Part shown: piece after piece, positions 9,746 to 62,473 of the stretch | Numbering within the stretch: the stretch's first letter is position 1 | How the letters are laid out: each line of letters starts with the position of its first letter | From: Ruegeria marisrubri | GTDB taxonomy: Bacteria; Pseudomonadota; Alphaproteobacteria; Rhodobacterales; Rhodobacteraceae | Length of the DNA: 64,000 bases | NCBI RefSeq assembly: GCF_001507595.1 | Contig: NZ_LQBQ01000003.1 | Coordinates: 1 to 64,000, forward strand | Reading direction: 5' to 3' | The notes under the pieces: model-generated | The model's database searches: none | Told to the model about the DNA's origin: nothing | Seen by the model: the letters and a program-made list of their open reading frames with translations, nothing else | Translations under genes and position numbers: made by a program

Positions 9746-9769
9746 ACGGTGGACCGGAAGAAAGGTGGT

Positions 9770-9976
9770 ATGGCGATCACCCACCTGAAACCCGGCTCCT
9801 GTATGAGCGAAGCCGTCCGCGTCGGAGAAATCATTTTTCAGGCCGGGCAGATCACCGGAGATAAGGGCACCGGTATCGAAGTGCAGACACAGCAGGTTCT
9901 GGACGGGATAGACCAGGCCATGGCCGAGTTTGTCTGCTGGCAATCCGATGTCTTCTGGATTCAGGTTTGGTTGGTG
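9770..9976 (+). pseudogene. RidA-family gene truncated at the element boundary
   Basis: RidA (YjgF/UK114) proteins are about 130-aa trimeric enamine/imine deaminases. This gene starts at 9770 after a purine-rich ribosome site and keeps RidA-like sequence (VGEIIFQAGQITGD, then SDVFWIQVWLV) for 69 codons. Similarity stops at the first base of the 89-bp repeat. The frame stays open to 10063 but reads repeat sequence, giving a 97-aa chimera without the C-terminal half that completes the active site. It is very probably non-functional. Confidence 0.75.
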
Positions 9977-10065
9977 GGGGCAGAAACGGGGGCATTTCCC
10001 GGGGCACTCGGGTGCCACGGGTGTCCGTCTATCGATGTTCTGATGAAGTGGCTGGGGTGGTAGGA
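9977..10065 (+). repeat. Left direct repeat (att site) of the tRNA-Gln element
   Basis: 89 bp, 88 identical to 16256-16344 (C at 10016 versus A at 16295). The rightmost 17 bases, TGGCTGGGGTGGTAGGA, are the 3' end of tRNA-Gln including CCA on the minus strand; the remaining 72 are downstream flank. Confidence 0.92.
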
Positions 10066-10362
10066 AACCTTGCCGACCGATGATTGTTATCGGCATTTTC
10101 CACTAGCCCGAGAAACTGGGGCGGTTTCGGGGGCATTTTGCGGAGTAGAGCGATGGCGGGTCTGCGCCGGGCATTTCAACCGCCAGAGTGACCGTCGACC
10201 ACCGCTATCGACCCCGTGGCTGGAGACCTGCTGACTGGTGCTGACGGGTTGGTGGCTGGGGGATGCAGCAGCCTCAAAGCATAAGCGTTACTTGTTGGAG
10301 AAGCCGTATCCATCAGCGCTTTCGAGCGAAACGCCGCTTTCTCGTCATCTGTTCGCTGTCAG
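10066..10362. other. Non-coding left arm of the element
   Basis: About 300 bp without a gene I can support. Bases 10116-10140 carry a diverged partial copy of the start of the repeat (ACTGGGGCGGTTTCGGGGGC), as if an older attachment sequence lies just inside the left end. Confidence 0.4.
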
Positions 10363-12210
10363 CTACTCGGATACCGGCCACTTCAACACCCGGCTCTCAA
10401 GAGAGCGTCCGCGTGACTTGGCGATGTAGGCCGGATCGCGTCCACCACGATAGCGAGGGCCCTTTTCCACATTGGCAAAGTTGTCGTCGCCAGCCCCGCC
10501 CTGCGGCGCTCCGATCCAATAGTCGTCATACGCTCGCAGCTGATATTCCATCCGTCCGGACAACCCACCATTCAAGGGGATTTCGGCGCCGACACCAAGC
10601 AAGAAGCCGAGTTCGCTTTCATCCCTGGTCACAACCGGCCCGGAATGCAATTGGTACTGACTGGTGAAGTTGCTGGAAATCGCGCCGAAGCGGCCATACA
10701 ACAAAGCATTTCCGGGGGTTCTCAATCCCGAGATGGCGCTCAAGCTATAGGCATTGCCGCGCTCGACCGAGAAATTCCGCGCACCGGAATGGGGCCATTC
10801 CCCATCATTGAACTCGACCTCGGCCTCCAAGCCGAGCACGAGATCATTCAGGTTTGCCCGATACCCTGCAAACAATCCTGCGACAGGGCTGTTGTCACCG
10901 AAATCGGCGGTCAAGAACCCGTTTGAGCCTCGCGGGCCGTCCACCTTGGTTTGCGTAGCCAGGTTCCCGACATGCCCGCCGATGTAGAAACTGGATGCCC
11001 CCCAGGATGCGAGATTGCCGGTGCCCTCATCATAATAATTGTCCAGCGCGGCCCCCAACCGCAGGGAAATACGATGTTCATCGTATTCCGCTCCGGCCGC
11101 GTCCGACTGTCTTTGTTGAAAGCTGTAGTCCGTATCCAGATAAACGCGAGGATTGAAGTAGTACCGCAGGGATAGTCCCGTTTCCGCCAAATAGTCGGTG
11201 CGGTCAGTCTGTTGATAGTCATTCTGGGTCAGGAAAAAGTAACCGGCGAGCGATACGTTCTGCGAAACCCGATGCCGCAACCGCAGCCCCGCAGAGGTCG
11301 CCAAATAGCCGGACGCGCCGGTCAGGGTGGTTTCTTCCAAGCTACGTTCGACAATGCCGGTCAATCGTGTGGAGTCACCAATCGACGAACTTAGATCAAG
11401 GCCGAAGTCGGGTGCCGTGACTGTATCAAAAGCCGGGTCTTCGTAATCCTGGCTCAGAATCCCAAGCATCACCTCACCGCGCGCGTTACCGATAGAACCG
11501 GTGTATCCAACGGCTGCTCTCAGGCCATCGGAATCGCGTTCCACCGCGGTGTCATAGTCCCGCTTTTCATAGATTCCCTGAACGAACACCTCGCCGTTTT
11601 CGGTTTTCGAAACACCGATGCGCCCGCCTGCCTCCAAGTGAGTGCGATCACGGTCGTCATTGTCGATGCGTATCCCCGAAATGCTGTCCACGTCATCAAA
11701 ATCGAGATCACGGGCATTGATGCCAAACCGGTATCTTCTTTCGTCGATTCGACCGCCGACCCCGAAATACCCGCTGGTCTCATCATATACTGTCGGCTCG
11801 ATACCAAACACAGCATCTGGAGAACTGCGGCTTTCGTGTTCGTGCGCAAAGTCCAGGCCTCCAAAGACGAAAAACTGGCGATCGAATTGGTATCTGAAGT
11901 CCGCGCCAACGCTGTAGTCATCATAGTCTTCTGAGCCGTAGTCTGCATAACGGCCAAGTTCTGCCCGAGCATCCAGTCCGAGACTGAACTTCTCGCCTGT
12001 TAGCGACAGCCTCGCCCAAGGCGCAATGATCGTTACGAAATCATCACGGCGGTCGTTTGACGTCGCGAAGACGTTGTCGGTGTATTCTTCGGCCAGACTG
12101 ACGCCAGCGTCGAAATCAACCTGTGCTGCATCCTGAGCCCACACAGAGGGTGCCAGTAATTGCCCGACCGATGCGCCAGCGACAATTGGAAGGAACTTTC
12201 TCGTAAGCAC
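10363..12210 (-). CDS. Outer-membrane beta-barrel protein, two-barrel fusion
   Basis: A 615-aa protein with a signal peptide (cleavage near PSVWA|QDA), so exported to the outer membrane. Residues about 30-400 resemble the BBP2_2 barrel family found with exopolysaccharide export systems (EEYTDNVFATSNDRRDDF, then alternating polar/hydrophobic strands). Residues about 405-575 resemble a separate Omp25/OmpA-like porin barrel (SSFYIGGHVGNLATQ, GLFAGYRANLNDLVLGLEAE). The last about 40 residues are basic and lack a terminal aromatic strand, so the second barrel may be incomplete. GTG start. It is cargo of the tRNA-Gln element. Confidence 0.7.
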   Translation of the reverse strand: MLTRKFLPIVAGASVGQLLAPSVWAQDAAQVDFDAGVSLAEEYTDNVFATSNDRRDDFVTIIAPWARLSLTGEKFSLGLDARAELGRYADYGSEDYDDYSVGADFRYQFDRQFFVFGGLDFAHEHESRSSPDAVFGIEPTVYDETSGYFGVGGRIDERRYRFGINARDLDFDDVDSISGIRIDNDDRDRTHLEAGGRIGVSKTENGEVFVQGIYEKRDYDTAVERDSDGLRAAVGYTGSIGNARGEVMLGILSQDYEDPAFDTVTAPDFGLDLSSSIGDSTRLTGIVERSLEETTLTGASGYLATSAGLRLRHRVSQNVSLAGYFFLTQNDYQQTDRTDYLAETGLSLRYYFNPRVYLDTDYSFQQRQSDAAGAEYDEHRISLRLGAALDNYYDEGTGNLASWGASSFYIGGHVGNLATQTKVDGPRGSNGFLTADFGDNSPVAGLFAGYRANLNDLVLGLEAEVEFNDGEWPHSGARNFSVERGNAYSLSAISGLRTPGNALLYGRFGAISSNFTSQYQLHSGPVVTRDESELGFLLGVGAEIPLNGGLSGRMEYQLRAYDDYWIGAPQGGAGDDNFANVEKGPRYRGGRDPAYIAKSRGRSLESRVLKWPVSE

Positions 12211-12500: not shown

Positions 12501-12677
12501 TTATGAGGGTGGTCTTCGGTTGACGACATAGTCAGCCAGCCATTGCCAGTAGGCTTCAGCGTCACGATACCCCTGAGCCTGAGCAGCCAGATCTTCCGCT
12601 GCCTTACGGGTGCAACCACCATCGTATTCAGCGATAGCGGCTCGTTCCTCGAACGCGTCAATGTCGGGGAACGTCAT
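12501..12677 (-). CDS. Small protein coupled to the integrase (58 aa)
   Basis: A 58-aa acidic protein whose ATG overlaps the integrase stop (ATGA, 12674-12677). It begins MTFPDIDAFEERAAIAEYDG and ends in a tryptophan-rich helix (EAYWQWLADYVV). The EERAAIAEYDGG-type segment recurs, from memory, in small proteins near recombinases of alphaproteobacterial mobile elements, but has no assigned function. Coupling suggests a recombination-directionality or other accessory factor for the integrase; that is inference. Confidence 0.8.
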   Translation of the reverse strand: MTFPDIDAFEERAAIAEYDGGCTRKAAEDLAAQAQGYRDAEAYWQWLADYVVNRRPPS

Positions 12678-13621
12678 GTCGGTAACCGGATCTGGTCCAC
12701 GATCGACCGGCGCTGCTCGTCACTGATGCCAGCCGAGTAAATGCCATAGGTGATCCCGTTCTCCGACCGCGCCGACTTGTGGCCGACCAGAGACGCCGTG
12801 AAGTGCTCTGGAACACCGGTTCGCTCGCACTGGGTAATGAACCACTTCCTGGTCGAGTGAAACACTAACCCCGGTCGCGCCAGATCAAGCCGCCGTCTCA
12901 GTCTCGCGAACCCCTTGGTCACCTGCGCGACAGTCAGGTCAGGGAACAGTGGGCCAGTCGATGGCAGTCGTCGAAACACCTCGTCCAAGACAGGGTGAAC
13001 CGGAACCAGTCGCTCCGCCGCCTCCGTCTTCAGCAGTCGAAGCTGGTTGGGTCTCACATGAACGAACGACCCGAGGTTGCCCTTGGACACCAGATCATCC
13101 CTGAGCAACCCGACCGCTTCCCCCGCGCGCATTCCCGACAGCAGACAGGTCAGCAGAACAGGATGCAGATCCCGGTCCTTGGCTCGGAGCAGTTGGACCA
13201 CCTCATCGTCGGTCGGAACCGCGTAAGGCGCTGGGCGCACCTTCCGATCGAAAGGAACCGTCCGAAACGGATTGGCCTCCAGATGCCCCTCGTAGACCAC
13301 CCAGTCGAGAAAGTGATTGACCTGCGACCAGATCCGCCGCTGGGTTCTGGCCGTTATGGTCACCGACCCCCGCGACGAGTAGGCGACGAGTTGGTCCAAG
13401 GTTAACCCTCTCGTGGTTTCGCTCTTGCCGATCATCGGGGAAAGCTGAGAGATCAGGCTCAGGAACTCCCGTCCGTCAGCCCTGGACAAGCTGCAGACAG
13501 ACCGCTCACCAAACTTGCTGGTGAACAACCCGACGGAGTATCGGACCGATTTGAACCCGCTGGGCCGTAATGCGTTGCTGCGCTTTGAGAGGTAAACTCT
13601 ACTTGCGTCGCGCACGGACAC
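12674..13621 (-). CDS. Tyrosine recombinase of the tRNA-Gln element
   Basis: A 315-aa integrase. The core-binding domain spans residues about 1-130 and the catalytic domain 135-305: R165 (SGMRAGEAV), K198 (LKTEAAER), H255-x-x-R258 (HSTRKW), H281 (LVGHKS) and the nucleophile Y292 or Y295 (TYGIYSAG). It starts with GTG at 13621, two bases after the stop of the upstream small gene. It lacks the DUF4102 arm domain of the other integrase in this window and belongs to a different subfamily. It would recombine the 89-bp repeats. Confidence 0.93.
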   Translation of the reverse strand: MSVRDASRVYLSKRSNALRPSGFKSVRYSVGLFTSKFGERSVCSLSRADGREFLSLISQLSPMIGKSETTRGLTLDQLVAYSSRGSVTITARTQRRIWSQVNHFLDWVVYEGHLEANPFRTVPFDRKVRPAPYAVPTDDEVVQLLRAKDRDLHPVLLTCLLSGMRAGEAVGLLRDDLVSKGNLGSFVHVRPNQLRLLKTEAAERLVPVHPVLDEVFRRLPSTGPLFPDLTVAQVTKGFARLRRRLDLARPGLVFHSTRKWFITQCERTGVPEHFTASLVGHKSARSENGITYGIYSAGISDEQRRSIVDQIRLPT

Positions 13622-13623
13622 CT

Positions 13624-13815
13624 TCAGGCGTCGGAGACGACCCGGACGATCAGGTCCAGCGCCGGTTCGCCGTACTCGCCAGCCAGAGGGCCGGTCAGCG
13701 CGGTCCCGGTCACGCAGTCTTCGAACACCTCGTCCACGAGGAACAGATGCTCGGGGACGTCATCGAAGGCCCGGATCACCACGACGTCACCGGGTTTCAG
13801 GTCCAACTCAGTCAT
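13624..13815 (-). CDS. Small conserved element protein (63 aa)
   Basis: A 63-aa acidic, beta-rich protein (LKPGDVVVIRAFDDVPEH, then FLVDEVFEDCVTGTALTG), suggestive of a small SH3-like barrel. The start at 13815 has GGAGG 6-7 nt upstream; longer in-frame versions lack a ribosome site. It overlaps the end of the upstream membrane-peptide gene by 8 nt and ends 2 nt before the integrase start. The function is unknown. Confidence 0.8.
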   Translation of the reverse strand: MTELDLKPGDVVVIRAFDDVPEHLFLVDEVFEDCVTGTALTGPLAGEYGEPALDLIVRVVSDA

Positions 13816-13981
13816 CGTAGCCTCCGTTCTTCCAAGACCAGAGGACCGCCAGCAGAACCAGCGCCGAGACAACGGGGTGGGAACGCGAGATCACCCAGAG
13901 CATCGTCGTCAGGACGGCCTTGGGCGGTGGGCGCAAAAGAAAACCCCCGGCGAGGACGCCGAGGGCAGACAGGTACTTCAT
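13808..13981 (-). CDS. Small membrane protein heading the integrase operon (57 aa)
   Basis: A 57-aa peptide, ATG at 13981, 7 nt after AGGAG. It has an N-terminal hydrophobic segment (YLSALGVLAGGFLL), a short basic/proline turn (RPPPK), and a second hydrophobic segment (HPVVSALVLLAVLWSW), so one or two membrane passes. The stop overlaps the next gene. It may be a holin-like or regulatory membrane peptide; nothing specific is recognisable. Confidence 0.7.
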   Translation of the reverse strand: MKYLSALGVLAGGFLLRPPPKAVLTTMLWVISRSHPVVSALVLLAVLWSWKNGGYDD

Positions 13982-14115: not shown

Positions 14116-15531
14116 ATGACTGGATCGCCGCTGGCTGACGTAATCGTCGTTCTTCTTACCGTCTCACCGGTCCTTGCTATTGTTTTTCTAGTACTTTGGT
14201 TGAAACGTAGGCGCGATCTGAAAGCTCTAGAGTTTGAAACCGACAAACGTGACGCTGAGCTGACTAGGCAGATCCAAGCCGCTGAGAATAGCAAGCATCA
14301 ACTCGAGGAGCGCTTTTCTGCGATCTTGGACATCGAGGCCGAAGTTCAGAAAACTCGAACGGAACGAGATCGGATCGAGAGAGAAATTGAAAGCCTTCGC
14401 GCCACCTACAAGGAGAAACGACAGATCTACGACCGCCTGCTCGAACAAGTGGCCATATTTGACGAGCAAATCTCCTTTGCCGAGTTTGGCGTTTACCAGC
14501 CGCATTTCGAGTTCGGTGACAGCGAACGATATAAGGAGGCCATAAAGGCGGTGCGGGACGAACAGAAAAACGTGGTGAAGGCTAAGACAGCTGTCGATGT
14601 ACATACCGCGTGGACGGTCGAAGGTTCTAAAGCAAAAGGCCAGACGATGGCCAATCGGGCTGTTCGGTTGGCACTTCGGGCCTTCAACGCTGAGGCGGAT
14701 GCAGCAATCGCTAACACCAGATGGAACAACGCCGAGGCGATGATCCGACGTATCGAAAACGCGTGCACCCAGATCAACAAGGCAAACGCATCTCTGAATA
14801 TTGAGATCACGCAATACTATCTGGACTTGAAGCTGAGAGAGCTTAGGCTGACGCATGAATATCGTGAACAACTCAAGGCTGAACGTGACGAGCGCGCAGA
14901 AGAGGCTCGGCTTCAGCGCGAGGAGAAACGGCTTGAGGTAGAGGCCGAAGAAGCTCGCCGCGAAGAAGAAAAATACGAAGCCATGCTGGCAAAGGCTCGA
15001 GCGGAAGCTGGAGCAATCCAGTCGGAAGATCAAGGTGCCAAGATCGCTGAACTCGAAAGACAGCTAGCGGAGGCGCATGAAAAGACGGAACGGGCTCAGG
15101 CGATGGCAGAGCGTACTAAGACTGGTTTTGTCTATATCATTTCGAACGTTGGGTCATTTGGCGAAGACGTGGTCAAGATTGGATTAACCAGACGGCTAGA
15201 TCCTGCTGATCGCGTCAGGGAACTGGGAGACGCATCGGTGCCCTTCCTTTTCGATACGCATGCTATGATCTATTCTGAAGAAGCCCCCGCACTGGAGGCG
15301 GCTCTCCATGCAGAGTTTGACGGCCAGCGAGTCAATGGTGCCAACATGCGGAAAGAGTTTTTCCGGGCTACCCTTGAGGAAGTCGAGGCGGCTGTTCGCT
15401 TTCTCGCGCCAGATGCCGAATTTCACAAAGACGTTGAGGCGCAGGAATTCCGGGAGACATTGGCAAAGCGAAAACAACAGTTGGAGGCGGAACGCCAAGA
15501 TGAAAAGCTCATGTTCCCCGCGGAAATCTGA
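14116..15531 (+). CDS. Membrane-anchored coiled-coil DUF4041/GIY-YIG nuclease, SNIPE-like anti-phage protein
   Basis: A 471-aa protein starting at ATG 14116, 5 nt after GGAG. An N-terminal membrane helix occupies residues 8-29, then coiled coil 38-118, a DUF4041-like core about 120-240 (GVYQPHFEF, RLALRAFNAEADAAI), charged coiled coil 250-335, and a C-terminal T5orf172/Mug113 GIY-YIG nuclease domain 337-430 with YII (340-342), VKIGLTRR (353-360), E394, H398 and RKEFF (412-416). Membrane anchor plus DUF4041 plus GIY-YIG is the architecture of SNIPE, described as a nuclease cutting phage DNA during injection. It is divergent from the integrase operon. The defence role is inferred from architecture and location. 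Confidence 0.82.
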   Translation: MTGSPLADVIVVLLTVSPVLAIVFLVLWLKRRRDLKALEFETDKRDAELTRQIQAAENSKHQLEERFSAILDIEAEVQKTRTERDRIEREIESLRATYKEKRQIYDRLLEQVAIFDEQISFAEFGVYQPHFEFGDSERYKEAIKAVRDEQKNVVKAKTAVDVHTAWTVEGSKAKGQTMANRAVRLALRAFNAEADAAIANTRWNNAEAMIRRIENACTQINKANASLNIEITQYYLDLKLRELRLTHEYREQLKAERDERAEEARLQREEKRLEVEAEEARREEEKYEAMLAKARAEAGAIQSEDQGAKIAELERQLAEAHEKTERAQAMAERTKTGFVYIISNVGSFGEDVVKIGLTRRLDPADRVRELGDASVPFLFDTHAMIYSEEAPALEAALHAEFDGQRVNGANMRKEFFRATLEEVEAAVRFLAPDAEFHKDVEAQEFRETLAKRKQQLEAERQDEKLMFPAEI

Positions 15532-15573: not shown

Positions 15574-16035
15574 ATGAGAGTTATCCAGCCAAAAGGGACC
15601 AAAGGAAGCTTGAAATGGATTCAAGAAATGATCCAATGCTATCCTGACCTTCTTCAGCCGTCAGGACTTCCAACTATCGAATGGGTTTCACCTCTAGCGG
15701 AAGATGAATACGCCGAGTATCGCGATGAGGCATTCTTGGACCGCCTCGGTATCGGGCACCTCACAGCGTCACTGAAAGACTTCTGGCCGCAACGTGGACC
15801 TCAGTGGGATGCTTTGGGAGTGACTTCGAGTGGCCCGGTGCTCGTCGAGGCAAAAGCACACGTTCGCGAGTTTTTTTCGCCGCCGTCGCAAGCCGGTCAA
15901 CGCTCTCGTAAACAGATTGATCGCGCCTTCGCCTCAGTCCGGGCCGATCTTGGGGTTGGCCGGGCCACTGACTGGTCAGAACTCTATTATCAGTACGCCA
16001 ATCGCATAGCTTTCCTATGGTGGCTCCGCGAGTAA
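15574..16035 (+). pseudogene. PD-(D/E)XK nuclease-like protein, C-terminally truncated
   Basis: 153 codons, ATG after GGAAGG, 42 bp downstream of the GIY-YIG gene on the same strand. Residues 78-95 contain QWDALGVTSSGPVLVEAKAH, fitting the D-x(n)-ExK core of the restriction-like nuclease fold. The product stops at IAFLWWLRE, where the fold would need further helices, and the DNA continues straight into a fragment of a different gene. The gene is probably broken by a deletion junction near 16030, although the nuclease core itself is intact. Confidence 0.6.
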
Positions 16036-16189
16036 CCGGGCGGTGATTGACGAGACGACGGTGGTTCGCCATCGCTGCCACAACGAGCGCTGCTGTCGGC
16101 CGGAGCATCTGGTCGAGGGGTCGGCGGCGGATAACAAGCGCGACGACTGGGACTTCTGGGCGAACGGGGTCGATTACGACCTGCTATAA
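16034..16189 (+). pseudogene. HNH endonuclease C-terminal remnant
   Basis: About 51 codons without a start encode VVRHRCHNERCCRPEHLVEG followed by a DNK helix, the zinc-ribbon/HNH core seen in phage HNH endonucleases, then end normally at TAA. The N-terminal half is missing, replaced by the truncated PD-(D/E)XK gene. It marks decay at the right end of the element. Confidence 0.75.
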
Positions 16190-16255: not shown

Positions 16256-16344
16256 GGGGCAGAAACGGGGGCATTTCCCGGGGCACTCGGGTGCAACGGG
16301 TGTCCGTCTATCGATGTTCTGATGAAGTGGCTGGGGTGGTAGGA
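16256..16344 (+). repeat. Right direct repeat (att site), overlapping tRNA-Gln
   Basis: Second copy of the 89-bp repeat; its last 17 bases are the 3' end of the intact tRNA-Gln gene. Identity stops one base into the next tRNA position (T at 16345 versus A at 10066). Confidence 0.92.
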
Positions 16345-16402
16345 TTCGAACCTACGGTACGCGGTACCAAAAACCGTTGCCTTACCACTTGGCTACACCC
16401 CA
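16328..16402 (-). tRNA. tRNA-Gln (anticodon TTG)
   Basis: 75-nt cloverleaf with encoded CCA. Acceptor TGGGGTG/CACCCCA, D stem GCC/GGC, anticodon loop TTTTGGT giving UUG, T arm GTAGG/CCTAC with TTCGAAT. The top pair of the anticodon stem reads A-C (ACGGT/ACCGC). The gene is the integration target of the neighbouring element and is intact. Confidence 0.96.
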
Positions 16403-16494: not shown

Positions 16495-17487
16495 CTAGGC
16501 GCGGCATTGAACGAGCACGGCACCGGCGCGGCCACCGGTTTCGACGGCTTCATGGGCGGCCGCGCAATCGGCCAGATCATACACCGATTGGACTGGGCAG
16601 TCCAAGGCGCCGTCCTGCAATGCGGCGGCCAATCGGTCGATGGCCTGCTTGCGTATCGACGCCGACAGCAGGTAGACCAGCACCATCTCGAGCGTCACGG
16701 CTTTGAACATCAGCGCGTAGAAGGGCAGGGTCGGTGCCATGTCCTTGGCTGAACCATATGCGTTGATGCGTCCGTTTTCGGCGATGACCTCCGTATCGGT
16801 CTCCACGTTCACGCCGAATTCCACCTCGACGATTCGCTGCACCGGATCGCCGCCATTGGCCGAGAGAATCTGTTCGGCCAAGTCGGGGTCTGCATAGTCC
16901 AGCGCAACGTCCGCTCCGGCGGCGCGTACGCGGTCCAGGCTGCCTGCACCCGCCGTGGCGATCACCCTGGCGCCGCCCCATTTGGCCAGTTGGACGGCCA
17001 GGTAGCCGACCGTCCCCGCGCCCCCATGAACCAGAACGGTCTGACCCGCTATGTCGCCGCCCGAAAAAACCGTATGGCAAGCCGTCAGCCCAGGGATTCC
17101 CAGCACTGCGCCGGTTTCCAGCGAGACGGATTCCGGCAGGGGCACCGCCTGCTCGGAGGGCAGTGATATCTTTTCGGCGGCGGTTCCGAAGGCGCGCCGC
17201 CACTGGCCGTTCCAGACCCAGACCCGCTGGCCGATCCGCGAGGGCGACACGCCCTCGCCCACTGCCGAGATCACGCCGGAGCCGTCGCTGTGGGGGACGA
17301 TGACCGGATAAGGCGGCTTGGTTACGCCCGGCCGGGCGCCGGCCCGGGCCTTGACGTCCGACGGGTTCACCCCGGAAAAGGCCAGATCGACCACCACTTC
17401 ACCGGGCCCGGGGTTCGGCGGTTCCATTTCGCTGATCCGCAAAACGTCCCGCGCCGTTCCGAATTCGCTATAGGTTATGGCCCTCAT
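16495..17487 (-). CDS. Zinc-free NADPH:quinone reductase (MDR superfamily)
   Basis: A 330-aa medium-chain oxidoreductase. The GroES-like domain (1-130) lacks the zinc-binding cysteines, and the Rossmann domain carries the AXXGXXG-type motif HGGAGTVGYLAVQLAK. This is the quinone oxidoreductase/zeta-crystallin type, reducing quinones or enones with NADPH in the cytosol. The start at 17487 follows GGAGCAGG; an upstream extension would add about 87 basic residues not typical of the family. It is a stand-alone gene between tRNA-Gln and the ribosomal cluster. Confidence 0.85.
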   Translation of the reverse strand: MRAITYSEFGTARDVLRISEMEPPNPGPGEVVVDLAFSGVNPSDVKARAGARPGVTKPPYPVIVPHSDGSGVISAVGEGVSPSRIGQRVWVWNGQWRRAFGTAAEKISLPSEQAVPLPESVSLETGAVLGIPGLTACHTVFSGGDIAGQTVLVHGGAGTVGYLAVQLAKWGGARVIATAGAGSLDRVRAAGADVALDYADPDLAEQILSANGGDPVQRIVEVEFGVNVETDTEVIAENGRINAYGSAKDMAPTLPFYALMFKAVTLEMVLVYLLSASIRKQAIDRLAAALQDGALDCPVQSVYDLADCAAAHEAVETGGRAGAVLVQCRA

Positions 17488-17813
17488 CCTGCTCCACCTG
17501 TTCTTGAAGTCCTGCCAGGAATTCCGGCAAGACGCGGTTTCACTCTGGAAACACATGATGGGCGCGATGGGCACGCATCGCAACACAAGACCGCACCGTC
17601 CTGCAGCGCCGTTTCGGGCAGAAGAAACCCCGGCCTGTGGGCCCCGAAAGTTCCGCGCAAACTTTCCCTTGCCCTCAAAACGACTCTCCCTTATAGGGAC
17701 GCATCCTGCGATCACCCGGGCCTCCCGGGGGATTCGCATGTCTATCATTCATCCACCAGGTCAAAGGTGACCCGAGAAGGGGCCTTCTGGTGTTTTGAGC
17801 AAAGGAAAAGGCG
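17488..17813 (+). promoter_or_regulatory. Promoter and leader of the rpmC ribosomal cluster
   Basis: A gene-free 326 bp. At 17669-17697 lies TTGCCC, a 17-bp spacer and TATAGG, which would start transcription near 17704 and give a leader of about 110 nt ahead of rpmC. The leader has a small hairpin AGAAGG-GG-CCTTCT (17775-17788). A promoter is needed here because no rplP or other S10-operon gene lies upstream. Confidence 0.55.
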
Positions 17814-18014
17814 ATGAACGCCCAGGAACTGCGTAACAAGACCCCGGACCAGCTCCGGGAGGACCTGGTCAACCTGAAAAAGGAAGCATTCAATCTGCGC
17901 TTCCAGCAGGCGACCGGCCAACTCGAGAACACCGCCCGGATCAAAAGCGTGCGCCGCGACGTGGCGCGCGTCCAGACCGTGCTGAACGAAAAAGCCGCTG
18001 AAGCTGCGAACTGA
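17814..18014 (+). CDS. rpmC: 50S ribosomal protein L29
   Basis: 66 aa, two antiparallel helices ([19 protein letters not shown], then [18 protein letters not shown]), normal length. It binds 23S rRNA near the exit tunnel. First gene of the cluster here; in most bacteria rplP precedes it directly, which is not the case in this window. Confidence 0.97.
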
Positions 18015-55376: not shown

Positions 55377-55453
55377 GGACCGATAGCTCAGCTGGATAGA
55401 GTACTTGACTACGAATCAAGGGGTCGGGGGTTCGAATCCTCCTCGGTCCGCCA
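55377..55453 (+). tRNA. tRNA-Arg (anticodon ACG)
   Basis: 77-nt cloverleaf with encoded CCA: acceptor GGACCGA/TCGGTCC, D stem GCTC/GAGT, anticodon loop CTACGAA (ACG), T arm GGGGG/CCTCC. It marks the left end of an insertion-sequence-rich region. Confidence 0.96.
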
Positions 55454-55772
55454 CTTGGTACCGAAATGAAAGGGAAATTTCCCTGTGTAGCGGTTTTACC
55501 CGCCAAAAAGCCCGCCATCCGAAATGCGCTTGACTGCTATTAGGTGCGATCGATCGAAGATGCACCATCGGTCGTCATTCCCACATGATTGCGGGTTGCA
55601 AACTAATAAAGTAACCCAAAGGAAGACTGTCAAACCTTACCTTGCAGTGGGGTTAAAAGACCAGTTTCTTTCTGCCTCAATTCGAAAGGTGGGCTAGCAC
55701 AGGACCGATAAAGTCCTATGGTGGCAGGCAAATGCCGGGCATCGTTGCCGTTCCATGGTAACCGCCCGATTT
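55454..55772. other. Gene-free stretch after tRNA-Arg
   Basis: 319 bp, lower GC than the core genome. Nothing supportable is seen beyond a short palindrome AGGGAAATTTCCCT near 55469. No second copy of the tRNA 3' end was found. Confidence 0.4.
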
Positions 55773-56003
55773 CTAACGCGGGCCGCTGTCCTTGACGCGG
55801 GCTGTGATGTCTGGGTCTGACACGAAGGCTTCGAGGAAGTTGCGCCAATCTTTGGGGGATCGTCGGGCGTCGAGGATCAAATCGCGTAGCTCTTCGCTCC
55901 CGTGACCGGTGACGGCGGTGACTGCCTCATCCGTTCCGGTGTGGATGCTGACACTGTTTCCGTAACTGAGGTTATCGTCGTTGCTGACGATTGCGTTCAG
56001 CAT
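55773..56003 (-). CDS. Hypothetical protein (76 aa)
   Basis: ATG start at 56003 without a clear ribosome site. The C-terminal half is helical (EELRDLILDARRSPKDWRNF). No family recognised. It could be a remnant in this decayed region. Confidence 0.4.
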   Translation of the reverse strand: MLNAIVSNDDNLSYGNSVSIHTGTDEAVTAVTGHGSEELRDLILDARRSPKDWRNFLEAFVSDPDITARVKDSGPR

Positions 56004-56104
56004 TTCGGGATTACATCGTTGACGGCGCTGAAATTACACCATGTGCCCGGACGTGACCTTCGCGAACGAGCACTGAAAACGCTTCTCTCCGATTTGTGTG
56101 GAGG

Positions 56105-56187
56105 CCACCGGCCCCTGAAACCATCGTCCCGATGGACCGCAGGCCGGTCATGCACTAACAATCGAGCCGGACCACTCAGCTGGGGCT
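56105..56187 (+). mobile_element. Remnant: right end of an IS3-family element
   Basis: 56105-56158 encodes PPAPETIVPMDRRPVMH and stop, nearly the same as the end of the orfB at 60641, followed by a terminal repeat (GGACCAC-N5-GGGGC) matching the IS right end at 60669. Only the last 18 codons survive. Confidence 0.8.
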
Positions 56188-56189
56188 GA

Positions 56190-56423
56190 TCAGCTCGTCA
56201 GACGGGCTTTCCCGGCTTCCAGGAACTCCTTCGACCAAGGATAATACAAGCTCTCGGCAAGGCCCTCGCGGCGAAACAGCGCTGCAATGCTTTCCTCACC
56301 GCGCAGACTGGCCAAGACGATCCTGATCTTATCCTCGGCCGAGCAATGCTTGCGCGTCTTACGTTTGATGCCCCTGACCAGCTTGTCAGCGGCGTCCTTC
56401 GATGTTCCGGATTTCCTGTTCAT
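56190..56423 (-). pseudogene. Truncated IS3-family transposase orfA
   Basis: MNRKSGTSKDAADKLVRGIK followed by SAEDKIRIVLASLRGEESIA: the N-terminal HTH part of an IS3-family OrfA of a different subgroup. GGAG precedes the ATG at 56423. The frame ends at the junction with the neighbouring IS remnant near 56188. A terminal-repeat-like TGTCTGACGTCAGCACC on the minus strand begins at 56508, so the residual element spans about 56188-56508. Confidence 0.8.
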
Positions 56424-56560
56424 TTTCACTCCATGAAGGTTACGATGAACCAGAAATCCTCCATCGCTCATACCCTCAAATATGTCCGGTAGGTGCTGAC
56501 GTCAGACACTTTTTACGGATTATGGACTTTTACCCTATGAGAAGTTTGTTGTGGCTTGTT

Positions 56561-57679
56561 TCACGCACTGTATTTTAACCATGATGCCTTGTGCCGTGCA
56601 ATCCGAGCGTCGTAGCCGCAATGACAATTTGGGCAATTTAATTTAAACGCGTTTTGCTCTGCTTTTCGATGTTTTTCGGTCTGCAAAAGCTCCAAAAGCG
56701 TATTGGTGTGTAAATTTCCTAATTTGAATGTCACATAACATAGTTGTACGCTACCATCGGCTCCAATCCATATGAGGTCATAAGCAGTACAAGGAACTTT
56801 CATGCGTTCTTTCTTTATGAGCCAATCTGGAATGGATCGCAGACCGCGTTCCGAGTTCGCGATCAGGCCAGGTTTTTTGCGCCTGACTTCAATTAGGCGC
56901 TCCGAAATCTCAACTAAGACACTATGATCTCTTTGATCGAAAGAGAATTTCTCGGCCTCAGCGCCAGATTTAAAGTAAGGGAGTGAATAGTGAACCAGAT
57001 TGATAAACACCTCGGCCTGCATTTCCTGTGCGAAACGCAACATTCTGCTGATGGTGTCGATATTTGCGGTGTGCCGTATTAGTAAAAAGTCAAAGCGCAC
57101 ACGCAGTTGCTCCGGGCCATGGTTTTTTCGCACTGCCTCGACGCCTTGTTTCATAACTTTAAAAGCGCCTTTGCGTTGAACATAAGCGTCGTAAACATCG
57201 CCCGTACCATAGTAGCCAAACGAGATTTTCTTGAGGCCAGCGTCTACCAATTTGTCAATCTTCTTACGTACCAATATCCCATTGGTCGTGATGAATTGGT
57301 CCATTCCGTGATCCGCAATACGCCTAACGTATCTTTCGATATCTTTGTGCAGAAGTGGTTCGCCCCCGTAGAGGCGGATCGTTCGAAAGCCAAGCTCTTT
57401 AGCGTCATCTATTAGACGCTCGCCCACAGACCACGGCAGTTGCTGTTGCGGCATGAAATCGCGACCATAGTTACAAGCTTTACAGCGCAAATTACAATCT
57501 GCGGTTAAGGTGATGAAGAGCGAGTCGGGTACTGGCTTGATGAGGTGAGGATGGCGCAGAGCAAGTTCATGGTAACCACGATCATAGCTGTCTTTGATCG
57601 CTTTAAGCGGGTCGCGTAGAGGTGTGTTTCGAAAGGTTTTCTTGAGCCCATTTTCAATTGATCGCGTAATGTTTCGCAT
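56561..57679 (-). CDS. Radical SAM protein with SPASM-like C-terminus
   Basis: 372 aa. C62-x3-C66-x2-C69 (CNLRCKAC) binds the SAM 4Fe-4S cluster; LYGGEPLLH is the SAM-contact motif. C-terminal cysteines (CYVTF, CPNCHCGYD) fit an auxiliary-cluster SPASM-type domain. Enzymes of this class modify peptides or sugars. No precursor peptide or partner gene is adjacent; both sides are IS sequence. The GC content is clearly lower than the core genes, pointing to transfer. Weak ribosome site. Confidence 0.85.
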   Translation of the reverse strand: MRNITRSIENGLKKTFRNTPLRDPLKAIKDSYDRGYHELALRHPHLIKPVPDSLFITLTADCNLRCKACNYGRDFMPQQQLPWSVGERLIDDAKELGFRTIRLYGGEPLLHKDIERYVRRIADHGMDQFITTNGILVRKKIDKLVDAGLKKISFGYYGTGDVYDAYVQRKGAFKVMKQGVEAVRKNHGPEQLRVRFDFLLIRHTANIDTISRMLRFAQEMQAEVFINLVHYSLPYFKSGAEAEKFSFDQRDHSVLVEISERLIEVRRKKPGLIANSERGLRSIPDWLIKKERMKVPCTAYDLIWIGADGSVQLCYVTFKLGNLHTNTLLELLQTEKHRKAEQNAFKLNCPNCHCGYDARIARHKASWLKYSA

Positions 57680-57884
57680 AATTGCAATTTCCCAAATTTA
57701 TATCGTTACTCTATCAACGCGCGCTGATCTCCAGTCCAATTCTTGACGGCCCGAACCCAGCGATTGCGTGCACCGATAAATTTGCGCCTTAGCCATGGTG
57801 TAGAATTCGCCATCCTACTGGAGTAGCCCCCTGAAAGTGGTCCACCAACTGGGATAGATTATCCCACAAACTGGAGGATCAGCG

Positions 57885-58163
57885 ATGGCTGGAAAACGTG
57901 AGAAGCCAGAAGAGATCGTATCGAAGCTTCGTCAGGTTGAAGTCCTGCAAGGGCAAGGCGCGACGATTGCTGAGGCGGTGCGCCAGATCGGCGTGACGCA
58001 GCAGACGTTCTATCGGTGGCGGAAGCTTTATGGTGGGATGCAGCGGTCTCAGCTTGCCCGGCTGAAAGAGCTTGAGAAGGAGAACCAGCGGCTGCGGCGG
58101 GCGGTATCGGACCTGACGCTGGACAAGCTTATTCTGACCGAGGCTGCAAAGGGAAACTTCTGA
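57885..58163 (+). CDS. IS3-family transposase OrfA
   Basis: 92 aa. HTH (VSKLRQVEVLQGQGATIAEA, then TQQTFYRWRKLYGG) and a leucine-zipper helix (LKELEKENQRLRRAVSDLTL). GGAGG lies upstream. OrfB would follow by frameshift near 58150. Confidence 0.92.
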   Translation: MAGKREKPEEIVSKLRQVEVLQGQGATIAEAVRQIGVTQQTFYRWRKLYGGMQRSQLARLKELEKENQRLRRAVSDLTLDKLILTEAAKGNF

Positions 58164-58717
58164 GCCCTTCACGTCGCCGAAAGTGCATCGACCATGTGCG
58201 GCAGGAACTGGGCGTGTCTGAGCGCCGCGCCTGCCGCACACTTGGTCAGCACCGATCGACGCAGCGTAAGGTGCCCCAGGGCCGGGCTGATGAAGATCGC
58301 CTGACCGACGACATCATTGCGCTGGCTGACCAATACGGGCGCTATGGCTATCGCATGGTAACCGGCCTGCTGAACAACGCGGGCTGGGATGTGAACCACA
58401 AGCGGGTCGAGCGTATCTGGCGGCGTGAAGGGCTGAAAGTGCCACCGAAGCAGAAGAAGAAAGGGCGGCTTTGGCTGAACGACGGGTCATGCATGCGTCT
58501 GCGACCCGAACGGCCGAACCACGTCTGGTCCTATGACTTCGTGCAGGATCGCACCGCAGATGGGCGCGCTTACCGCACACTGAACATCATCGACGAATAC
58601 ACCAGGGAGGCTCTGATGATCCGCGTCGATCGCAAGCTCAACTCAACGGACGTGCTGGATGCGCTGACCGATCTGTTCATTCTGCGCGGCCCGCCGGAAT
58701 ACATCCGGTCCGACAAC
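58148..58717 (+). pseudogene. IS3-family transposase OrfB, 5' part
   Basis: Covers the DNA-binding region and the first Asp of the DDE catalytic core (VWSYDFVQDRT). The frame is cut after IRSDN, exactly before the GPEF of the second catalytic motif, by the IS1111-type insertion. Confidence 0.88.
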
Positions 58718-58953
58718 GTCCTATGTCGGGAAAATTTGGCTGCTTAGGTCAGCAGGTCATGGAGTATTCGGTTGCCCGGATGCTCTGTTATGGTTGCCCA
58801 GACGGTCTCCGCCGTCAAGAAGCGGTCTCTCCCATAGCAAACACAGGGTACGCGCGATGGCGGCCCTCACCGTCCTTAAGACGAGATCCAAAATCCCAAG
58901 CGGAAGACCTGAACATTGTCTACGAGGTCAGCGAACTGCCTCCACGGCTCTTA
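58718..58953 (-). ncRNA. Candidate bridge/seeker RNA of the IS1111-type element
   Basis: The 236-nt non-coding region downstream of the transposase gene is where IS1111-group elements encode the RNA that guides insertion. It contains pairing segments and a repeated GGGCAACC on the minus strand. The boundaries and fold are not resolved; location is the main evidence. Confidence 0.5.
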
Positions 58954-60210
58954 TCAGACAAGGGTCCTTCCGCCTGGGCTCGCCCCTTCGAAGAAAGGAC
59001 GATAAGGTTCGCCATGTTTGACCACGGCGTGTACGGTGCGCGCCATCTTGGCCGCGATGGCGGTGTAGGCCTTGCGGCGCAGATGGGCGTTGTGTCGATC
59101 CCGTGCGATGTAGCGCTCGAACTTGTCGCGAAAGCTGTTGGTGCGTTTGAGAACGGCAACCTGTCCGGCGATCCACAAGGTTCGGCGCAGCCGGGCATTG
59201 CCGTACTTCGAGATCCGGCTCTGGCCGCGGAACATGCCGGACTGCACGGTGGCGAGGTCCATGCCACAGAACTTGAGGAACTGCCGGTGATGCCGGAAGC
59301 GACGCAAGTCACCGGCTTCGGCGAGAATGGTCAGGGCGTTGATCGGCCCGATCCCTGGGATGGTGGTCAGCAGCCGGTAATCCGGATGGTTGGATAAAAG
59401 CTCGACGGCCCGCGCCTCGATCTCGTCGCGCTGTCGGATCAAGCTGCGGCCTTCGGCCAGCACGAGGCGGAACATGCGAACGGCGTCGGAATCTGGGTGA
59501 ACTGGCAACCCCACAGACCCAATCGCCGTCGCGTAAATATCGGAAAGCAGGCGTTCTTTGGAGACCTTGCGGCCGACCACCTGCCAGGCATCAGCAACGA
59601 AGGCTTCGCGGCTCATGGCTGAGATCATGTGTGGCGTCGGGTACTTCTCAAGGAACGCCAGGAACCAGTCGGTTCGCGAGCTGCGATGGAATCTTTCCGC
59701 CTCGGGAAAGTAGAGCGGAAGGTAATGCGTCAGGATGCGATGCCACAGTTCGGTCTTCGAACGCGAGACGATCTCGTGCGTCTTCGAAAGCTCCTGAATG
59801 TCGGCGGTGCCGGTGACCAACGGGTCGTGGAAGAACTGCACGGCGCCGATCTCCAACATGTGCAGGATGACTTGGGCGTCCTTCGGATCGTTCTTGTCCC
59901 AGCTGTTGTGCAGGGCCTCGCGGGTCCGGGCCAGTCCGACGGAGGACACGAGCTTCAGCTCGAACCCGGCTTGGCCAAGGTGATGCGCCAAGGGCCGATG
60001 ATAATTGCCCGTCGCCTCGAATCCGATCCTCACCGGCAGATCGTAGCTGGAAAGAATCCCGCTCAGACGCTCGAAGTCCTCCAACGTGTTCATGATTGTC
60101 ATTCGACGGCGGCGTTTCTTGCCGGGAACACCGATCAATACCTCATGACGGTGCTTGGAAATGTCGATGGCGACCTGCAAGGTCGAGCTGGTAGAATTGG
60201 TGGCGGTCAT
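58954..60210 (-). CDS. IS110-family transposase (DEDD)
   Basis: 418 aa. N-terminal RuvC-like DEDD domain: AIDISKHRHEV, GFEATGNYH, KNDPKDAQ. C-terminal Transposase_20 domain with TTIPGIGPINALTIL and the serine-containing QSGMFRGQSRISKYGNARLR. GGAGA precedes the ATG. It looks intact, so the element may be active. Confidence 0.95.
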   Translation of the reverse strand: MTATNSTSSTLQVAIDISKHRHEVLIGVPGKKRRRRMTIMNTLEDFERLSGILSSYDLPVRIGFEATGNYHRPLAHHLGQAGFELKLVSSVGLARTREALHNSWDKNDPKDAQVILHMLEIGAVQFFHDPLVTGTADIQELSKTHEIVSRSKTELWHRILTHYLPLYFPEAERFHRSSRTDWFLAFLEKYPTPHMISAMSREAFVADAWQVVGRKVSKERLLSDIYATAIGSVGLPVHPDSDAVRMFRLVLAEGRSLIRQRDEIEARAVELLSNHPDYRLLTTIPGIGPINALTILAEAGDLRRFRHHRQFLKFCGMDLATVQSGMFRGQSRISKYGNARLRRTLWIAGQVAVLKRTNSFRDKFERYIARDRHNAHLRRKAYTAIAAKMARTVHAVVKHGEPYRPFFEGASPGGRTLV

Positions 60211-60266
60211 AGCCGGTCTCCTCAGCGGTGTGGTTTACGCAAAACCACTGTTGAGACCTGAGACCC

Positions 60267-60317
60267 GGTTATGGCCACCCGCTGCGCTATTTGACGGCTC
60301 CGCGTGTGGCCATAACC
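60267..60317. repeat. Long hairpin in the 5' non-coding end of the IS1111-type element
   Basis: Perfect 12-bp stem GGTTATGGCCAC/GTGGCCATAACC with a 27-nt loop, between the transposase start and the element end. It may be part of regulation of the transposase transcript. Confidence 0.6.
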
Positions 60318-60347
60318 TCTCAGCAGCTCTTCTTCCCGACGTGCTAT

Positions 60348-60641
60348 GGGCCGGAATTTATTGCTCAGAAGGTGCGGGACTGGATCACCGCCGTCGGCGC
60401 CAAGACAGCTTACATCGAGCCAGGATCACCCTGGGAGAATGGATACTGCGAAAGCTTCAATGCCCGGTTCCGGGATGAACTGCTGAATGGCGAGCTGTTC
60501 TACACCTTGCGCGAAGCCCAAATCCTGATCGAACAATGGCGCGTCCACTATAATACCGTCAGGCCGCACAGCGCATTGGGCTACCGCCCGCCTGCGCCCG
60601 AAAGCATCGTGCCGATGGACCAGAGGCCGACGATGCACTAA
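60348..60641 (+). pseudogene. IS3-family transposase OrfB, 3' part
   Basis: Continues in the same frame with GPEFIAQKVRDWITAVGAKT, contains the catalytic Glu region (PGSPWENGYCESFNARFRDE) and the usual C-terminal RPHSALGYRPPAPESIVPMD. Non-functional while the insertion is present. Confidence 0.9.
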
Positions 60642-60691
60642 CAATCAAACCGGACCACCCGATGGGGGCACGCCAGGAGGAGTATGTTTAG

Positions 60692-62473
60692 TCAGTTTTT
60701 TTTCAGCCCAGCTTGCTCCAGACCGGAAACAATTTCTTCGATGATCTCGGACTCCACGTTGTGGAGTTCGAAAGCGGCCTTTGGATCCTCGGCAAGCAGC
60801 GGCCAGCGTTCCGCCATCCTGTCCAGGTTCTTCCGGGCCGCGGTTTCGTTGCCGAGGGCGCCGTGGGCGATTGCGAGCAGTGCGTAGCTGACACTCGATC
60901 CATCGGCGACGGAATGGTTTGCGGCCTCAAGCATGTCCTCCCAATCCCCCCTCATCATGTGGTTCATCGCAATGATGTGGTAGTAGAAGGGCACAGGCTG
61001 GACCGAGCGCGCGATGGCGCGCTCCATAAGGGGCACGGCTTCCTCGAAACGGTTGCGCGTGCCCAGTCTGTAGGCAAGGTTTGCGAGCGCGTCCGGGTCG
61101 TTAGGGTTCGCCTCGACCGCCTGCTGTGCATAGTCGATCGAACTATCGAAATCCCCTTCGTAGTACTCAATGTGGGAAAGTGCTCGGAGGGCATCAATAT
61201 CCTTCGGAGCGAGAGAGAGGGCACGCATGGCGGCCTCGCGTGCCGGAACGAATTTCTCACCCTCAGCCAGCGTATCGTCGTAACCGAAGCGGGCCGCATC
61301 CATGCGCAGGTAGGCGAGCACCGCCCAGGCGCGGGCGTAGTCGGGGTCCTCGCGTACGGCGTTTTCGAGGCAATCGCGTGCGGCCTGGTATTCTTCGGTG
61401 CGAATGGTCCGCCGGTAGATCTGTGCGCGAGCGACACAGGCATAGGCATCCAGGCTCGATGTCGCGCTATGGGAGAGTGCAAGCGTTCGGGCCTCATTCA
61501 ATGGCCGGCCATAAGATTGCCCAACCACGGTGGCGATCTGCGAAGAGATTTCATCTTGTATTTCGGTGATGCTCCGGTTTTCCGGCCCCTCCGAGTAGCG
61601 TTCGCTCCATAAGACCTTCTGATCCTCGTTGCGCTTAAGCGTGGTACTGACCAGCAATGTATCGTCCTGCTGCCAGACGGTCCCTGTCACGACGAATTGC
61701 GTATTCGGACGCGACCGTGCCGCCTGGGGCTGGCTGGGCCCGGTGGGCTCCAGATAAACGCTCAGGTCCGGAAACTTCAGAAGGGCCGCCGCTATTTCCT
61801 GCGCAAGGCCTGCGGCAAGAAGCGAGGTCAATTCATCTGTACCCCGGCTTTCGAAACCTTCAATCAGGATGCTGGCACCGGCAACAGGGATATCCGGGCC
61901 AGTAGTGGCCTTGTCCTCAGTTCTGTAAATCGCGCCTATCGCGACGGCAGCAAGTGCCAGAACGGCAACGGCAACCACGGCAAATCGGCGCCTCCGCGAT
62001 GAAGTTGCGCCTTCTTGGGACAATTGTATATCTGCAACGCCCGCTTCCGGCTCGGGCGGAACGGCGGGTATTTCTTGGACAGATGGGCTATTCCCGGTTG
62101 GATCGGGCGCGGTCAGGGCTTCGAATTTCGGCACATATCGTCCCTTGGGGATGCTGATCCGGATCGGATCGCCGCGGCCGGCATCGGCGTAGTAGGTATC
62201 GAGATCGCGACGAAGCTTGCGGGCTTCGAGCCGGACTACCGGGTCCGATTGCTGGTCGAAATCCCCCCCCCGGTCGAATACTGCCATCGCGATTGTCGTG
62301 GCCTTGATGCCAGATGCTCGTCCAGCCAGAGCCTCTTCCACGACATAAGCAAGCATGTCGCGACGCCGACCGCTGGCCTGAAAGCCGGGAAATCCAAGGA
62401 TCCGTTTCAGTTGCCGACGGACCTCTTCGTTGGTGATCGGCGTATGACTATAGGTTTCAGGGCGACGCGTCAT
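60692..62473 (-). CDS. Winged-helix/TPR membrane regulator
   Basis: 593 aa. N-terminal DNA-binding-like domain (residues 10-117: RRDMLAYVVEEALAGRASGI, VRLEARKLRRDLDTYY), a linker, one membrane helix (164-183), then a region that often forms a TolB-like fold (260-345), and TPR repeats (370-590; YARAWAVLAYLRMDAARFGY, DPDALANLAYRLGTRN). Architecture of CadC-like regulators, often misnamed adenylate cyclases. Target and signal unknown. Confidence 0.82.
   Translation of the reverse strand: MTRRPETYSHTPITNEEVRRQLKRILGFPGFQASGRRRDMLAYVVEEALAGRASGIKATTIAMAVFDRGGDFDQQSDPVVRLEARKLRRDLDTYYADAGRGDPIRISIPKGRYVPKFEALTAPDPTGNSPSVQEIPAVPPEPEAGVADIQLSQEGATSSRRRRFAVVAVAVLALAAVAIGAIYRTEDKATTGPDIPVAGASILIEGFESRGTDELTSLLAAGLAQEIAAALLKFPDLSVYLEPTGPSQPQAARSRPNTQFVVTGTVWQQDDTLLVSTTLKRNEDQKVLWSERYSEGPENRSITEIQDEISSQIATVVGQSYGRPLNEARTLALSHSATSSLDAYACVARAQIYRRTIRTEEYQAARDCLENAVREDPDYARAWAVLAYLRMDAARFGYDDTLAEGEKFVPAREAAMRALSLAPKDIDALRALSHIEYYEGDFDSSIDYAQQAVEANPNDPDALANLAYRLGTRNRFEEAVPLMERAIARSVQPVPFYYHIIAMNHMMRGDWEDMLEAANHSVADGSSVSYALLAIAHGALGNETAARKNLDRMAERWPLLAEDPKAAFELHNVESEIIEEIVSGLEQAGLKKN

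Follow-up and report, generated by a model that had tools for sequence, protein, structure and literature searches.

At positions 14116–15531 on the forward strand of the window, by which we mean the whole 64,000-nucleotide stretch of Ruegeria marisrubri DNA analysed here, an open reading frame encodes a 471-aa homologue of the anti-phage protein SNIPE. The protein family was first found as PD-lambda-1 in a 2022 screen (PMC9519451) and was renamed SNIPE in a Nature 2026 paper (PMC13190303). The locus raises the question of whether its product belongs to this family, how such a protein could act in a host of this kind, and what sort of element carries it.

Gene and protein architecture

The gene runs from an ATG to a TGA codon, and its product was identified by Pfam, PADLOC and alignment. 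The reading frame is already open from 13570, but the part upstream of 14116 overlaps, on the opposite strand, an 82-aa ORF that related elements likewise have next to their integrase, which makes 14116 the sensible start. A GGAG motif lies five bases 5' of this ATG, and a hydrophobic helix follows directly after the start. The GC content of the gene is 0.528, compared with 0.565 for the surrounding element and 0.614 for the window.

The product combines three features. A single N-terminal membrane helix spans approximately residues 9–29 (14140–14202, forward strand); it was detected by hydropathy, with a Kyte-Doolittle mean of 3.1 for the hydrophobic segment from residue 9, and is also helical in the structural model. 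The KRRR motif that follows it favours a predicted cytoplasmic C-terminus. DUF4041 (PF13250) occupies residues 185–239 (14668–14832, forward strand) and matches its Pfam profile with an E-value of 3.3e-19 and 69 bits, against a cut-off of 27. The GIY-YIG nuclease domain is found at residues 337–430 (15124–15405, forward strand), where T5orf172 (PF10544; E 3.7e-16, residues 337–430) and MUG113 (PF13455; E 2.1e-15, residues 353–428) both score above their curated Pfam cut-offs. The first-pass annotation had proposed precisely this SNIPE architecture of one helix, DUF4041 and GIY-YIG and had placed it in exactly this interval; hydropathy and the profiles for DUF4041, T5orf172/MUG113 and the PADLOC PD-Lambda-1 family all bear it out.

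Structure prediction, which the same annotation had suggested as a check, gave a more mixed picture. The AlphaFold2 model, built from 28 sequences, shows long helices (residues 5–66, 73–123, 233–298 and 304–335) and a mixed alpha/beta C-terminal domain. Its mean pLDDT is 79.5, but its pTM is only 0.45, and a fold search against solved structures returned nothing at E ≤ 0.001. The look-alikes that fell short of this threshold were mostly coiled-coil and designed-helix structures.

Family membership and catalytic residues

Two PADLOC PD-Lambda-1 models cover nearly the entire protein, namely PDLC03976 (E 3.2e-158, residues 42–463) and PDLC03977 (E 1e-153, residues 13–461). As the E. coli reference we used XSB42081.1, the copy annotated as PD-lambda-1 in the lambda-like Escherichia phage PhiR26_1, which was equated with the protein of PMC13190303 only through the matching numbering of Glu414 and Trp257. 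The two proteins are 43% identical over 497 alignment columns, and the reference contains the same three Pfam families, DUF4041, T5orf172 and MUG113.

Replacement of Glu414 by Ala abolishes defence by E. coli SNIPE, as reported in PMC13190303. The alignment places the equivalent of this catalytic residue at Glu394 (codon 15295–15297, forward strand). To judge its conservation we used 65 full-length homologues, which are the 74 loci of our homologue scan minus nine (L103, whose frame is broken, and eight products shorter than 350 aa). The Glu394 column holds Glu in all 65, and Y340, K354, G356, R359, R360, R366 and N410 of the GIY-YIG domain are likewise identical throughout. SNIPE is described as having a positively charged face on DUF4041 that binds DNA; possible candidates for such a face here are Arg181, Arg184 and Arg188, whose columns hold Arg in 63, 61 and 63 of the 65, respectively. 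A hydrophobic N-terminal segment is present in 61 of the 65 and missing from L047, L081, L087 (which extends beyond the end of its contig) and L092; for the published homologues, PMC13190303 gives one transmembrane helix in 59%, two in 7% and none in 34%. By the sequence features checked, the 471-aa product is a member of the SNIPE family.

Mode of action and host partners

We consider it highly likely that this protein is an anti-phage cargo protein of a tRNA-Gln integrative element in a Ruegeria-type host, as predicted from its sequence. More specifically, the N-terminal helix would serve as an inner-membrane anchor, and the long coiled coils would lie in the cytoplasm. DUF4041 would bind the incoming DNA and, when a siphovirus injects, its tape-measure protein; the GIY-YIG domain would cut the phage DNA during entry, as judged from the conserved domains and catalytic residues. 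For E. coli SNIPE, binding of DNA and tape-measure protein by DUF4041 and cutting at entry by the GIY-YIG domain are shown or supported by experiment in PMC13190303.

According to the same paper, association with ManYZ strengthens the defence of E. coli SNIPE against lambda, while its defence against many siphoviruses is independent of ManYZ (PMC13190303). The family is not defined by its association with ManYZ. In the host studied here, no member of the ManY family was found in its own genome (99.99% complete), the only one searched for it (0 of 1), and no member of the ManZ family in the 54 genomes of the genus; the E. coli control was positive in both searches. Due to these absences, the ManYZ docking route is very probably closed in this host, and with it the ManYZ-assisted branch of defence against lambda. 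Since E. coli SNIPE also defends without ManYZ, targeting is likely to proceed through recognition of the tape-measure protein by DUF4041, or through another host partner. The suggestion of the first-pass annotation that different host partners may be involved gains independent support from these searches. The host thus offers a natural test in which the ManYZ branch appears to be ruled out by gene content: if the protein defends here, tape-measure recognition or another partner must suffice.

The first-pass annotation had also expected the coiled coils to differ in length from those of the E. coli form. They do, but only slightly. DUF4041 starts 13 residues earlier than in the E. coli reference, reflecting a shorter N-terminal coil, and the GIY-YIG domain starts 20 residues earlier, so that the gap between the two domains is 7 residues shorter. 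We regard this difference as minor; the N-terminal region is the most variable part of SNIPE (PMC13190303). At the tape-measure interface, E223 of the E. coli protein corresponds to I210 here, a position that holds E in 60 of the 65 homologues, and W257 corresponds to R244. The departure at I210 counts to some extent against the proposed targeting. A W257R change in E. coli SNIPE raised defence against Bas14 (PMC13190303). However, Arg is simply the commonest residue at this position (26 of 65), and R244 therefore says little about a gain of function.

Distribution of SNIPE relatives

The homologue scan used this one protein as its query and reaches close relatives only. Its 74 loci lie mostly in records with alphaproteobacterial names; the other record names are Gammaproteobacteria, Kangiella, OMG group, Ignatzschineria, Desulfocapsa, Rhodothermales, Flavobacteriaceae and Planctomycetota. 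By tblastn, matches were found in 184 plasmid records, of which 113 are from Klebsiella; in 19 of the 184, query coverage reaches 80% or more. Among phages, 34 records match, all with less than 80% coverage and several through the C-terminal part only.

Ruegeria is a marine genus, and the assignment of the gene to an alphaproteobacterial host of such a genus was correct. The further claim that it would extend the known range of SNIPE does not hold, because PMC13190303 already lists alphaproteobacteria among the classes of its 474 homologues (Extended Data Fig. 9b, legend). DUF4041 itself was detected in 6 of 54 genomes of the genus and, among 385 genomes sampled from the class, in 4; the own genome is counted in each case. 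A literature search on SNIPE or DUF4041 together with alphaproteobacteria, judged by title and the start of the abstract, found no study of an alphaproteobacterial SNIPE. The protein adds a further SNIPE to a family whose wide distribution had been reported before.

Within the genus, the copy in the window is 57–62% identical to the five other copies over the aligned stretches. In a FastTree phylogeny of 73 sequences it pairs with a copy from a Rhodospirillales MAG (support 0.85). The sister group of this pair has seven members, three of which are other copies from the genus (support 0.865); the remaining two of the five lie further off. Separate acquisition of SNIPE copies within the genus is plausible. 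Among 55 of the 74 loci that were looked at, 11 have a tRNA or tmRNA in the fetched stretch. In L060, L069, L074 and L091, a tRNA (Arg, Pro or Ser) or tmRNA begins less than 1 kb downstream of the SNIPE gene, and these are possible further tRNA-linked islands carrying SNIPE.

A two-gene system with a conserved partner was considered and rejected, as the largest cluster of non-SNIPE genes spans only 7 of the 65 loci and the 153-aa ORF downstream of SNIPE, described below, has a relative in just one plasmid record and in none of the other class genomes searched.

The carriage of relatives by mobile DNA bears on who would profit from the protein. It could act as a superinfection-exclusion or inter-element competition factor that blocks phages or rival elements for the benefit of the island, which we regard as unlikely, if not implausible. 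The plasmid and phage records listed above, including the copy annotated as PD-lambda-1 in a lambda-like phage, are consistent with this idea, as is the location of the present gene on an integrative element. However, the gene neighbourhoods of the 65 homologues do not point to any single element type, and PMC13190303 reports that plasmids could still be transformed into cells with E. coli SNIPE. Moreover, a role in exclusion would change the beneficiary and not the biochemistry. We retain anti-phage defence as the preferred function.

The tRNA-Gln element

The first-pass annotation had assigned the gene to a compact element at a tRNA-Gln gene, and the boundaries of this element could be defined. 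A tRNA search located the integration target, tRNA-Gln (TTG), at 16328–16402 on the reverse strand. A repeat search found an 89-bp direct attachment repeat, consisting of a core and an arm that we call the A arm, in two copies at 9977–10065 and 16256–16344 (both reverse strand). The copies are 99% identical, lie 6279 bp apart and bound an element of 6.3 kb; the repeat takes in the last 17 bp of the tRNA gene, 16328–16344 being its 3' end. Directly inward of the left copy, at the inner left end of the element, lies a second arm, the L arm (10066–10140, reverse strand), which comparison showed to be shared by related elements.

We asked whether the A arm might be plain chromosomal sequence beside the tRNA gene. 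Among 36 other sampled genomes of the genus with the tRNA-Gln target, the A arm is absent beside it in 30, where the target is unoccupied, and present in 6, and we rejected this reading. It is also contradicted by G018 and G021, where the A arm is present in stretches that hold no tRNA. The left junction has a history of its own. A ridA-like gene (9749–9976) abuts the left repeat copy, and its similarity to relatives stops at about residue 76, so that the gene is truncated at the arm boundary. In G017, the homologues of ridA and its two neighbours lie together on a contig other than that of tRNA-Gln, and the left junction is therefore probably not ancestral. This suggests a rearrangement through the attachment site.

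Besides SNIPE, the element carries an outer-membrane beta-barrel cargo protein of 615 aa (10363–12210, reverse strand), recognised by the Pfam families BBP2_2 and OMP_b-brl. One may speculate that this protein changes the cell surface in a way relevant to phage adsorption. A tyrosine integrase of 315 aa follows (12674–13621, reverse strand; Pfam and comparison), accompanied, as in related elements, by the 82-aa ORF (13624–13872, reverse strand; comparison). The earlier description of the element as having its own integrase is right in that the gene is present; no other copy turned up in the own genome. The enzyme nevertheless lacks residues 1–116 of its 434-aa homologues, including DUF6538, a net loss of about 0.39 kb relative to the gene in G034, while the core-binding and catalytic parts are kept. 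Across the genus, the integrase gene occurs in 9 of 54 genomes: six copies are full-length, that of G020 is split, that of G423 is partial, and the ninth is the truncated one of the window.

Downstream of SNIPE, a 153-aa ORF (15574–16035, forward strand) has no Pfam match, and by eye we take it to be PD-(D/E)XK-like. Its relatives were found in one plasmid record and in none of the other genomes among 240 of the class. Residues 71–153 align to the middle of an Azospirillum plasmid protein annotated with 237 aa and end earlier, and the ORF is probably cut short relative to it. Next to it, comparison revealed a 3' remnant (16037–16189, forward strand), presumably of an HNH endonuclease gene, as judged from its motif. 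Stretches similar to this remnant adjoin the A arm in G034 and G021 and, more weakly, in G017.

The partial decay of these neighbours, seen in the integrase N-terminus, the 153-aa ORF and the HNH-like remnant, counts against the preferred explanation, and the locus may be ageing even though the SNIPE gene itself is intact. It would also fit a GIY-YIG protein that no longer defends and whose coils and helix persist while the gene decays along with the element. However, the open SNIPE frame and the conserved residues at the catalytic positions checked make this improbable. A housekeeping nuclease of the host that acts at the membrane, for instance in DNA repair or competence, is compatible with the domain content alone but very improbable in view of the sporadic presence of the gene in genus and class, its low GC content, the carriage of its relatives by phages and plasmids, and the fact that the characterised relative is a defence protein (PMC13190303).

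Two further regions of the window were noted. In the region 16495–18014, a quinone-reductase-like gene separates tRNA-Gln from a series of ribosomal protein genes (rpmC, rpsQ, rplN and others, by eye). In the S10-type gene order rplP is expected upstream, and the operon looks split at this position. Farther away, a low-GC stretch at 55377–60700, downstream of a tRNA-Arg, contains a radical-SAM-like gene as well as two genes that by eye resemble IS3 and IS110 transposases, and is flanked by an 82-bp direct repeat with 78% identity.

Related elements with inverted attachment arms

Seven other genomes (G012, G017, G018, G020, G021, G025 and G034) contain eight integrase modules of 5.8–13.4 kb. 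All eight, when examined, had the L arm with its core at both ends, in inverted copies that align over 92–318 columns with 75–100% identity. A search of the 54 genomes for the L-core junction found 22 sites, spread over 10 genomes. Opposed pairs that bound these integrase modules account for 16 of the sites, and the reversed control pattern gave none. Four pairs of integrase modules were compared, and these have in common mainly 2.0–2.5 kb around the 82-aa ORF and the integrase, plus short arm pieces.

Adjoining the integrase modules are cargo modules that have the A arm and core at both ends, again inverted. Their proteins include a 617-aa cyclase, a 637-aa cyclase with TPR repeats, a 514-aa VapE/primase-like protein and a 505-aa protein of phage family phrog_4756; other cargo in the related elements includes a sulfatase, sulfotransferases, an amidase, an autotransporter and a histidine kinase. 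The related stretches with both kinds of module, at or near tRNA-Gln, are L142, L143, L144, L145, L148, L021 and L025/L150. In the relatives, the integrated form reads tRNA-core-A-cargo-A'-core'-L'-(82-aa ORF, integrase and further cargo)-L-core. A simple tandem of sites in one orientation was rejected for these elements, as their sites alternate in orientation. Exceptions to the pattern are an incomplete outer core in G018 and the G025 contig, which ends before the cargo; a second G025 integrase copy lies on a 5-kb contig that is too short to judge. The G018 element lies away from tRNA-Gln and seems to have joined through its other site.

Cargo and integrase modules are combined differently among these genomes. 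Despite integrase modules that otherwise differ, G034 and G021 have a 617-aa cyclase with identical residues at 611 of 617 positions. For the 505-aa protein, G012 and G018 agree at 463 of 505 positions. The SNIPE element has one L arm only. No second L trace was found inside it, the search giving two weak hits of 25–40 bp at the right A arm, and it may represent a reduced or fused form.

We tentatively propose, with the chances somewhat below even, that SNIPE sits on a reduced member of a modular element family built on a two-site circle whose halves are exchanged independently, and that the SNIPE-bearing copy has lost the inner site and part of its integrase. The circular form would hold two attachment sites in opposite orientation, separating a cargo half from an integrase half. 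Either site would serve integration, and SNIPE, cyclase and primase-like genes could be swapped onto one integrase, an exchange we infer from the module combinations. The assemblies are drafts in which inverted repeats can be misassembled, and this counts against the inverted-arm model; the contigs concerned measure 65 kb in G034, 21 kb in G021 and 41 kb in G025, though those in G012, G017, G018 and G020 reach 349–901 kb. Screening of the literature by title and the start of the abstract found no published description that is obviously the same kind of paired-inverted-site element, which does not prove its absence. The architecture of this element family is more novel than the protein. If the proposal is true, paired inverted sites with swappable cargo would be a compact means of reshuffling genes, those for defence among them.

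Comparison with known systems

Among known proteins, E. coli SNIPE provides the closest overall comparison: both proteins have an N-terminal membrane helix, DUF4041, a GIY-YIG domain and the catalytic Glu, in 471 aa here and 500 aa in E. coli. PDC-S57, from the candidate defence proteins of PADLOC, has the C-terminal nuclease domain in common (E 6.9e-19), but its match covers residues 334–460 only, whereas the PD-Lambda-1 match is far stronger and extends over residues 42–463.

The element resembles tRNA-targeted integrative elements, for example those of the Islander database (PMC4383910), in using the 3' end of a tRNA gene as core, in its terminal direct repeats and in its phage-type integrase. 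It differs from them in the truncation of this integrase, and its relatives in seven genomes differ further, with their integrase module placed between inverted arms beside a separately combined cargo module.
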